Assembly (NCBI GenBank): GCA_021802105.1
Contig: JAKAAW010000007.1
Span: 1 to 33,521 of the forward strand
Length of the DNA: 33,521 nucleotides
Direction of reading: 5' to 3'
Source of the DNA: Nanobdellota archaeon
GTDB lineage: Archaea; Nanobdellota; Nanobdellia; Parvarchaeales; Parvarchaeaceae
Every line of letters begins with the position of its first letter. Position 1 is the first letter of the stretch. This document shows positions 15,595-21,036 of the stretch, one piece after another. The translations under genes were made by a program, and so were the position numbers. A model generated the notes under the pieces. That model worked only from the letters and a program-made list of their open reading frames with translations, had not been told where the DNA came from and searched no databases.

Positions 15595-15684
15595 AAATTA
15601 TTAATATATTAGACTATCCAATAAGAAAGCTTTAAATTAAGGCTTACCCTTATCTTTATTATAGTCGCTCATCGCGATTTCAAT

Positions 15685-15693
15685 AAAGGAGGT
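15685..15693 (+). promoter_or_regulatory. Strong Shine-Dalgarno site for the PRC-barrel gene
   Basis: AAAGGAGGT ends four bases before the ATG at 15698. It is among the strongest ribosome-binding sites in this window, where many genes have none, and fixes the start codon. A TATA-like CTTTAAATTA is upstream near 15630. Confidence 0.7.
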
Positions 15694-15697
15694 TTAT

Positions 15698-15970
15698 ATG
15701 TCTGGTATAACAAAAGGTGAAAGAATAGACGCGAAAGCAGTCGTCGGTAAGACAGTGGTAGGGAAGAGCGGAAAGAAGCTTGGAGTAGTGAACGACCTTA
15801 TATATGAAGTAAGAACCGGTGAACTCGTCTCGCTTACTATAAAAGCACCAACATCATACGCAAACACGTTTCAGTTTGAAAAGGATCAGAACGGTTTCGA
15901 ACAGATTCCTTATAATTCAGTAATCTCTATAGGTGACTTTGTCGTCGTCGCAGAAGAAGATATAATATAA
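15698..15970 (+). CDS. PRC-barrel domain protein
   Basis: A 90-aa single-domain PRC-barrel protein. IDAKAVVGKTVVGKSGKKLGVVNDLIYEVRTGELVSLTI is the canonical first half, and IPYNSVISIGDFVVVAEE the last two strands. PRC-barrel proteins occur as small cytosolic beta-barrels in archaea and bacteria; some bind RNA-processing factors (RimM) or cell-division partners (the archaeal CdpB proteins associated with FtsZ/SepF). Which role applies here is not shown by sequence. It is monocistronic with a strong SD site. Confidence 0.9.
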   Translation: MSGITKGERIDAKAVVGKTVVGKSGKKLGVVNDLIYEVRTGELVSLTIKAPTSYANTFQFEKDQNGFEQIPYNSVISIGDFVVVAEEDII

Positions 15971-19595: not shown

Positions 19596-19820
19596 TTAGT
19601 AGTATTTGAAATACTTGCCTAGTTTCTGGCGGAAACCTACAAATAGGATTATCAGGAAACCCAAAACCATCACGCCCATTGATGTATAGGCGGTGCTTGT
19701 TGGGATATAACCAAATGCCGAAGTAAGAGCGGATGTAACCTGTGGTATATTCACTCCAGTAAGCACTATCGCTCCAACTGCTACTAGAACCAAACCTGCA
19801 ATAAATCCTGCCCAGTGCAT
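19596..19820 (-). CDS. Small two-helix membrane protein (74 aa)
   Basis: Two hydrophobic helices (WAGFIAGLVLVAVGAIVLTGV and SMGVMVLGFLIILFVGF) flank a Ser/Thr-rich loop, with a basic aromatic tail (RQKLGKYFKYY). I prefer this frame over the overlapping 93-aa frame in the track, which lacks a coherent membrane pattern. Family unknown. It is upstream of, and probably co-transcribed with, the 71-aa protein. Confidence 0.6.
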   Translation of the reverse strand: MHWAGFIAGLVLVAVGAIVLTGVNIPQVTSALTSAFGYIPTSTAYTSMGVMVLGFLIILFVGFRQKLGKYFKYY

Positions 19821-19908: not shown

Positions 19909-20397
19909 ATGTTGAAGAAAAAATGTGCTTCTTGTGGAGTGCCTCTAGATAAAGATTGGAATTTCTGCCCCAACTGTGGTGCCTCATTGAGAGGGGTTCA
20001 GGGTGGAACTGGAGGAGGTCTTGACATAAACAAAATGGTGCAGCAGATGGTAGGCCCCCTTCTTAATACTATGATGGGAGGAATGTTTCAAACACAGGCG
20101 CAACCAAAGCACACTCATAGGAACCCACTGGAAAAACGCACTGAACCTATAGAAGAAGTTATAGAACCAGAGGAAGCCGTAACCGACTTGCGAGATAGCG
20201 TCGCACACGTAATTACTTTGCCGGAGGTAAAGAGCAAATCTGATATAAACATAATCAAGATGGAAAATTCTATAGAGGTCAGAGCCGTGGTAGGTAAAAA
20301 GCTGTATTTGAAAATAATAAAAAGGGAGAAAGGAGAGGGCATTCTGTCCGAAGAATTCTCAAAAGGGAATCTTGTAATAGTGCTAAAGAAAATTTGA
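19909..20397 (+). CDS. Zinc-ribbon protein with Hsp20-like C-terminal domain
   Basis: A 162-aa two-domain protein. The N-terminus is a zinc ribbon (CASCGVPLDKDWNFCPNCGASL), followed by a Gly/Met-rich flexible linker with MVQQMVGPLLNTMMGGMF. The last ~75 residues (RDSVAHVITLPEVKSKSDINIIKMENSIEVRAVVGKKLYLKIIKREKGEGILSEEFSKGNLVIVLKKI) follow the beta-sandwich pattern of the alpha-crystallin/Hsp20 or p23-like fold. This suggests a chaperone-like or adaptor role; inference only. A small hairpin with a T-tract follows the stop. Confidence 0.78.
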   Translation: MLKKKCASCGVPLDKDWNFCPNCGASLRGVQGGTGGGLDINKMVQQMVGPLLNTMMGGMFQTQAQPKHTHRNPLEKRTEPIEEVIEPEEAVTDLRDSVAHVITLPEVKSKSDINIIKMENSIEVRAVVGKKLYLKIIKREKGEGILSEEFSKGNLVIVLKKI

Positions 20398-20414
20398 CCG
20401 TAAAACACGGTTTT
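20398..20414 (+). terminator. Putative terminator hairpin with T-tract
   Basis: CCGT-AAAAC-ACGG followed by TTTT immediately after the stop of the zinc-ribbon/Hsp20-like gene, then an A/T-rich stretch. The four-base stem is short, so the T-tract may be the more important part in an archaeon. Confidence 0.4.
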
Positions 20415-20449
20415 AAAATTAAATAAAAAATAAAAAAACGAAAAGGGGT

Positions 20450-20581
20450 TTATTCGAAGTCTTCGTCTGTATCGTCATCCTCTCCATCAAACTCGTCATC
20501 AAAGGAATCGTCTGCTTGTTCGTTCTCCTCGATAACGTCTTCATTTATCTCTTCATTTTTTTTCATAGGCTTTTTTACCAT
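20450..20581 (-). CDS. Very acidic 43-aa mini-protein
   Basis: This gene is too short for the ORF track. On the minus strand an ATG at 20581 is preceded by a clear Shine-Dalgarno sequence (GGAGGT, 4 nt from the ATG). It opens a frame with a basic start MVKKPMKKNEE and a strongly acidic remainder (ADDSFDDEFDGEDDDTDEDFE) ending in TAA. The composition (over 40% Asp+Glu) and the ribosome-binding site make a real small protein likely. Such acidic tails are seen in DNA-mimic proteins, histone chaperones and RNA polymerase-associated peptides, but no family can be assigned. It diverges from rnp4, with a perfect palindrome in the shared upstream region. Confidence 0.7.
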   Translation of the reverse strand: MVKKPMKKNEEINEDVIEENEQADDSFDDEFDGEDDDTDEDFE

Positions 20582-20671
20582 CCTACCTCCATTTTTTGTC
20601 GCTGCGTTCTTTTCAGAACACAACACTTTTTAAGAGAATTGCTTTCCTTAAATACATTTCCAAAACGTGAA

Positions 20672-20733: not shown

Positions 20734-21036
20734 ATGCTCAGAAAAAAGAACAAAAACGCTTTTGAAAGGGATTATAACTTCCTTGTCAAAGAAGCCCTAA
20801 AACTGTATGACACTGACAGAAAATTGTCCGACAGATATGCGTACATAGCGTACAGGATTTATCTGTCAAAAAAACTCGATTTATCAAAGGATAAAAAGCT
20901 TTTAATATGCAGACGCTGCAATAGAATCCTTATACCTGGCAGAACCGCAGTTGTCAGACTTAAAAATAAAAGCATAACGTATAAATGCTTAAATTGCGGT
21001 AATGTGAGAAAAGTGAGATATGATAAGAGCAAGTGA
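20734..21036 (+). CDS. rnp4: RNase P protein component 4 (Rpp21/Rpr2 family)
   Basis: A 100-aa Rpp21-type RNase P subunit, which pairs with Rpp29 on the specificity domain of the RNA to aid pre-tRNA 5' processing. The N-terminal helices (DYNFLVKEALKLYDTDRKLSDRYAYIAYRIYLSKKLDL) contain the family pattern of a helix ending in R-A-...-R. The C-terminal zinc ribbon is CRRCNRILIPGRTAVVRLKNKSITYKCLNCGNVRKV, with CxxC...CxxC. It starts the ribosomal/translation cluster; the RNA partner is encoded at 7296. A TTTTTAATA TATA-like box lies 25-33 bp upstream. Confidence 0.93.
   Translation: MLRKKNKNAFERDYNFLVKEALKLYDTDRKLSDRYAYIAYRIYLSKKLDLSKDKKLLICRRCNRILIPGRTAVVRLKNKSITYKCLNCGNVRKVRYDKSK

Follow-up and report, generated by a model that had tools for sequence, protein, structure and literature searches.

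A conserved gene for an acidic microprotein, divergent from rpp21, in a family of Parvarchaeota

Small acidic proteins and the product of the locus

Several short, disordered proteins dominated by Asp and Glu are known from eukaryotes, among them DSS1/SEM1, Chz1 and prothymosin α, whose binding sites are grooves, basic or in part hydrophobic, in the machinery that handles nucleic acids. Acidic tails that belong to folded proteins include the N-terminal tail of Rpb6 and the C-terminal tail of eIF1A. The δ subunit of bacterial RNA polymerase similarly carries a highly acidic tail, together with a folded N-terminal HARE-HTH domain. The prokaryotic modifiers Pup and UBact are small, disordered and acidic, and end in Gly-Gly-Glu/Gln.

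We analyzed a stretch of 33,521 nt (the window) from a Candidatus Parvarchaeota metagenome-assembled genome (MAG; assembly G000, 669 kb). An unannotated acidic mini-protein of 43 aa had been predicted at 20450–20581, and translation of the minus strand confirmed the ORF, which runs from ATG to TAA and encodes MVKKPMKKNEEINEDVIEENEQADDSFDDEFDGEDDDTDEDFE. The product contains 21 Asp/Glu and 4 Lys residues. The predicted basic head and Asp/Glu run are retained across the whole family of orthologues: in the consensus, a short lysine head (M-A-K-K..K) precedes an acidic tail with spaced hydrophobic anchors, [DE]-[DE]-I-[IV]-E-E-x-E-L...[ML]-D-D-E-x-L-E...D-x-E-COOH. Asp and Glu make up about half of the residues in all 30 orthologues. 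The protein is expected to be intrinsically disordered; AlphaFold2 run on the single sequence, which is weak evidence on disorder, gave no secondary structure (pLDDT 62, pTM 0.13). A DNA mimic in the folded sense, one of the roles originally suggested, gains no support from this run; a disordered polyanion is possible.

The likeness to DSS1/SEM1, Chz1 and prothymosin α lies in shortness and acidity, without sequence relation. The conserved Trp/Phe acidic motifs of DSS1 are missing from the family, whose members have 0–3 aromatic residues and, in all 30 cases, neither Trp nor Cys. A Chz1-type role is at odds with the gene content of the genus: the histone fold (PF00808) was found in none of its 28 genomes, whereas control genomes were positive, which disfavors the histone binding also proposed for this peptide. 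With the Rpb6 and eIF1A tails the family shares an acidic stretch and spaced hydrophobic residues, yet it is free-standing, at 43 aa, and has no detectable homology to them. It resembles the δ subunit as an acidic polyanion, but its members, of 39–50 aa, have no folded N-terminal domain or Pfam match. Pup and UBact are similar in size and acidity; here, however, the C terminus is D-x-E (DFE, DTE, DSE, DLE, DEE and similar), GGE/GGQ is absent, and none of the orthologues has a C-terminal Gly-Gly. The C(P)XCG motif of archaeal zinc-finger micro-proteins is likewise lacking from the 30 cysteine-free orthologues.

Another small acidic family of DPANN archaea came to light in 162 of 357 class genomes. 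Its motif is D-[IV]-Y-[TS]-E-E-G-R-E...E-D-D-E-I...G-F-M-x-G-Y-E (L167–L196), and its members either stand alone or, in many cases, are joined to a Cys-rich domain; neither Pfam nor NCBIfam has a match for the form of 48 aa. One weak match of our profile, in genome G305 (E 7.5e-4 per genome, 378 genomes), pointed to this family. Both families are short and acidic, but their conserved motifs differ and no genome of the Parvarchaeota family is among the matches listed, so kinship was rejected.

Conservation and selection on the amino-acid sequence

The gene was predicted to diverge from that of the RNase P subunit Rnp4, and this neighbor is indeed Rpp21 (rpp21/rnp4, 20734–21036, plus strand; PF04032, E 7.5e-14). 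Rpp21 is present in 28 of 28 genus genomes, and in 27 of these an acidic ORF of 39–50 aa occupies the divergent position beside it. In the 28th (G015), the acidic gene lies at a contig end, adjoining the break. The sister genus has an acidic ORF at the same place in both testable genomes; two further genomes of the family were not assessable, as in one the contig breaks off 91 nt before rpp21 and the other gave no rpp21 match. Lack of conservation in relatives had been named, together with an absent translation signal, as grounds for abandoning the prediction, and instead the ORF is kept in 28 genus and 2 sister-genus genomes.

When 378 genomes of the class and 371 of the phylum were searched with a profile of the microprotein, no convincing homologue appeared beyond the family, with two limits on such absences: the profile missed two genus members that have the ORF (G011 and G017), and MAGs are incomplete. 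The DNA around rpp21 in ∼50 other genomes of the class showed no clear counterpart. Nor was there a match above cut-off in Pfam (0 of 24 family members tested), NCBIfam, PHROGs or the PDB, and titles and abstracts on ARMAN-4/5 proteomics or small acidic archaeal proteins held nothing directly on this gene. The sequence searches suggest that the microprotein is specific to the Parvarchaeota family.

Substitution patterns, proposed at the outset as a check, indicate purifying selection, with dN/dS of 0.03–0.17 in close pairs. Across nine pairs of relatives, 70 differences were nonsynonymous and 83 synonymous, although 83% would be expected to be nonsynonymous (p ∼5e-25). At GAN codons, third-position changes separate Asp from Glu, and here the transversion/transition ratio was 0.38 in the acidic ORF versus 1.53 at four-fold sites of neighboring genes; relative to transitions, Asp/Glu exchange is thus ∼4-fold rarer than at nearby four-fold sites. 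The corresponding ratio for GAN codons of neighboring genes was 0.30, so the constraint on Asp/Glu exchange about equals that in neighboring conserved genes. Hydrophobic columns within the acidic tail are kept in 24–29 of the 30 genomes, one Lys is invariant (30/30) and the C-terminal Glu is found in 27 of the 28 scored, although these column statistics depend on the alignment because acidic sequences align loosely. Together, the suppression of Asp/Glu exchange and the retention of hydrophobic positions argue that residue identity is under selection, and not charge alone. Conservation and dN/dS, along with the promoter and ribosome-binding site described below, strongly bear out the original view of the ORF as a genuine protein-coding gene, and we regard its coding status as almost certain.

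Promoter, leader and Shine–Dalgarno element

Upstream of the ORF, on the minus strand, lies a TATA-box-like element, ATTTAAGG (20646–20653), which in most relatives reads TTTATAAA. A TATA box is found 68–83 nt upstream of the ATG in 28 of 30 orthologues, with a near-match in the other two, and in most of them it is followed by a TCTCTTAA-like context. Placing the start ∼27 nt past the TATA box predicts a 5′ leader of ∼45 nt (20582–20626); starts predicted in the same way from sequence give leaders of 41–56 nt across orthologues. On the 3′ side, a T-rich segment (20405–20449, minus strand), also T-rich in orthologues, is a probable archaeal terminator. Since no co-directional gene follows the acidic ORF, its transcript stands alone. 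These features suggest that the gene is separately transcribed from its own promoter.

The original prediction placed a GGAGGT site 4 nt from the ATG. The site itself is there (20585–20590, minus strand), with a spacing of 3 nt, and GGAGG occurs in 29 of 30 orthologues. When 37 ORF starts of the window were compared, the acidic gene alone showed an SD-like match of at least 6 nt; a PRC-barrel gene at 15698, not on that list, likewise carries GGAGGT. Such sites are rare genome-wide: GGAGG-N3-8-ATG occurs 118 times, versus 89 in the reversed control. This rarity makes the architecture of the acidic gene distinctive. The gene is probably well expressed.

The leader contains a hairpin (20600–20625, minus strand) with an 11-bp stem, which includes G-T/G-U pairs, and a GAAA loop (p = 0.003). 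RNAalifold found no consensus structure in the leader alignment, probably because the stems shift register; hence, stems were compared directly with shuffled sequences and paired positions were counted. In 16 of 23 representative genomes, the stem that follows the predicted start and precedes the SD was stronger than in dinucleotide shuffles (p < 0.05), and the summed stem score reached z ∼11 over the 23, a value that overstates independence given kinship among them. The hairpin sequence itself has diverged between genomes. Counted in one register, 69% of cells pair, both sides have changed in 5 of 5 pairs, and the counts drop when the partner is slid. Mean free-energy z-scores were –1.4 for leaders versus –0.4 for flanks.

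A strict pattern of this promoter and leader layout has two matches in the source genome, one of which is the acidic gene. The PRC-barrel gene (PF05239; 15698–15970, plus strand) has a leader (15631–15697) with a similar layout of TATA box, short hairpin and GGAGGT. The leader may therefore belong to a kind that some genes share, not one unique to the microprotein.

Adjacency of the acidic gene and rnp4 is conserved. A TATA-like TTTTTAATA lies ∼30 nt before the rpp21 ATG, an arrangement that suggests a leaderless rpp21 mRNA. As the two genes appear to have separate promoters and rpp21 looks leaderless, their proximity gives no evidence of a functional link, and a role via RNase P is not supported beyond the conserved adjacency.

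Possible partners and genomic surroundings

How might such a protein act? The hydrophobic anchors, the amino-acid composition and the selection on Asp/Glu identity fit best with a disordered acidic ligand that carries such anchors and would bind a basic partner. Most likely it would dock on a conserved gene-expression or nucleoid protein, at a surface that is basic and in part hydrophobic, with ribosomal proteins, translation factors, RNA polymerase and Alba as candidates; once bound, it would either rival the contacts made there with nucleic acid or act as their chaperone. A partner in information processing is probable. The mechanism taken whole, in which a separately transcribed and probably well-expressed disordered ligand docks on such a protein, is the reading we favor, at somewhat less than an even chance. 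More tentative is the broader proposal that this family-wide, possibly essential microprotein works within the transcription, translation or nucleoid machinery of Parvarchaeota, as a subunit or chaperone peculiar to this lineage, and is expressed via a hairpin-plus-SD type of leader that is otherwise rare in the genome.

The protein might instead serve a single machine as its dedicated short-linear-motif subunit, sequence-specific on RNA polymerase or a translation factor rather than a general competitor; a detached counterpart of the Rpb6 N-tail or eIF1A C-tail would be an example. Conservation of the anchors, the terminal D-x-E and Asp/Glu identity speaks for such a subunit, and ribosomal and RNase P genes lie in the neighborhood. 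But those neighbors are on separate promoters, and the resemblance to the tails would be one of composition, with no sequence match. For the polymerase-associated factor of the original prediction, the analysis gave evidence neither for nor against. We consider this version doubtful, though the best placed of the alternatives.

Alba binding was part of the original prediction, and its partner is at hand. Of the 28 genomes of the genus, 24 have Alba (PF01918), the source genome among them, in one copy in most; with histones in none, it is a plausible abundant basic target for an acidic antagonist or chaperone that strips or tunes Alba on DNA or RNA. Nothing specific to binding emerged, however. 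The two genes show no linkage, and four genomes with the peptide gave no Alba match, including one that is 92% complete (G039), although contig gaps may explain this. Alba binding as the specific role is possible but unlikely.

Could acidity alone matter, with the peptide serving as a proton, metal or charge buffer of an acidophile? The uniformly high Asp/Glu content is compatible with this, as are the habitats reported for relatives, which come from hot springs and from acid mine drainage (PMC5864196, PMC10134863). Yet with residue identity selected, Asp/Glu exchange being as constrained as in neighboring conserved genes and hydrophobic positions being kept, bulk buffering fits less well, and a single 43-aa gene would make a small buffer. 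We judge it improbable. Lower still stands the idea that the conserved element is mainly regulatory: the function would lie in the leader with its hairpin, or in an RNA antisense to the gene that converges on it, and the ORF would encode a leader peptide or be a mere passenger. The hairpin exceeds shuffles in most genomes and the transcript has no co-directional gene downstream; but amino-acid-level selection is strong over the whole ORF, the leader measures only ∼45 nt, and among the 23 representatives 7 miss the p < 0.05 threshold, which leaves this explanation very little room. A spurious ORF, for which length below the usual cut-offs is the sole argument, is ruled out for practical purposes by conservation and dN/dS.

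In genomes of ∼0.7 Mb there is little room for dispensable genes. The acidic gene, which all testable genomes of this family of tiny acidophilic archaea retain along with a promoter and leader of its own, therefore likely matters to the cell. It exemplifies the conserved small proteins that length cut-offs tend to miss, and its 30 natural variants make partner searches and mutational tests practical. Were the partner RNA polymerase, the ribosome or Alba, the microprotein would be a lineage-specific component added to archaeal information processing.

Other features of the surroundings are as follows. Downstream of rpp21, Pfam identifies S19e, a PDCD5-like DNA-binding protein and prefoldin; short ORFs of ribosomal type are interspersed. 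The convergent gene (19909–20397, plus strand), conserved in position, encodes a 162-aa protein with an N-terminal zinc ribbon; its C-terminal half is conserved, and in those relatives in which the gene was examined it likewise runs toward the acidic gene. Beside it, on the minus strand (19596–19820), is a gene for a small predicted membrane protein of 74 aa, and similar ORFs occur at the same place in L002, L006 and L066. The archaeal RNase P RNA gene (RF00373; 7297–7572, plus strand) lies on the same contig, ∼13 kb from rpp21.
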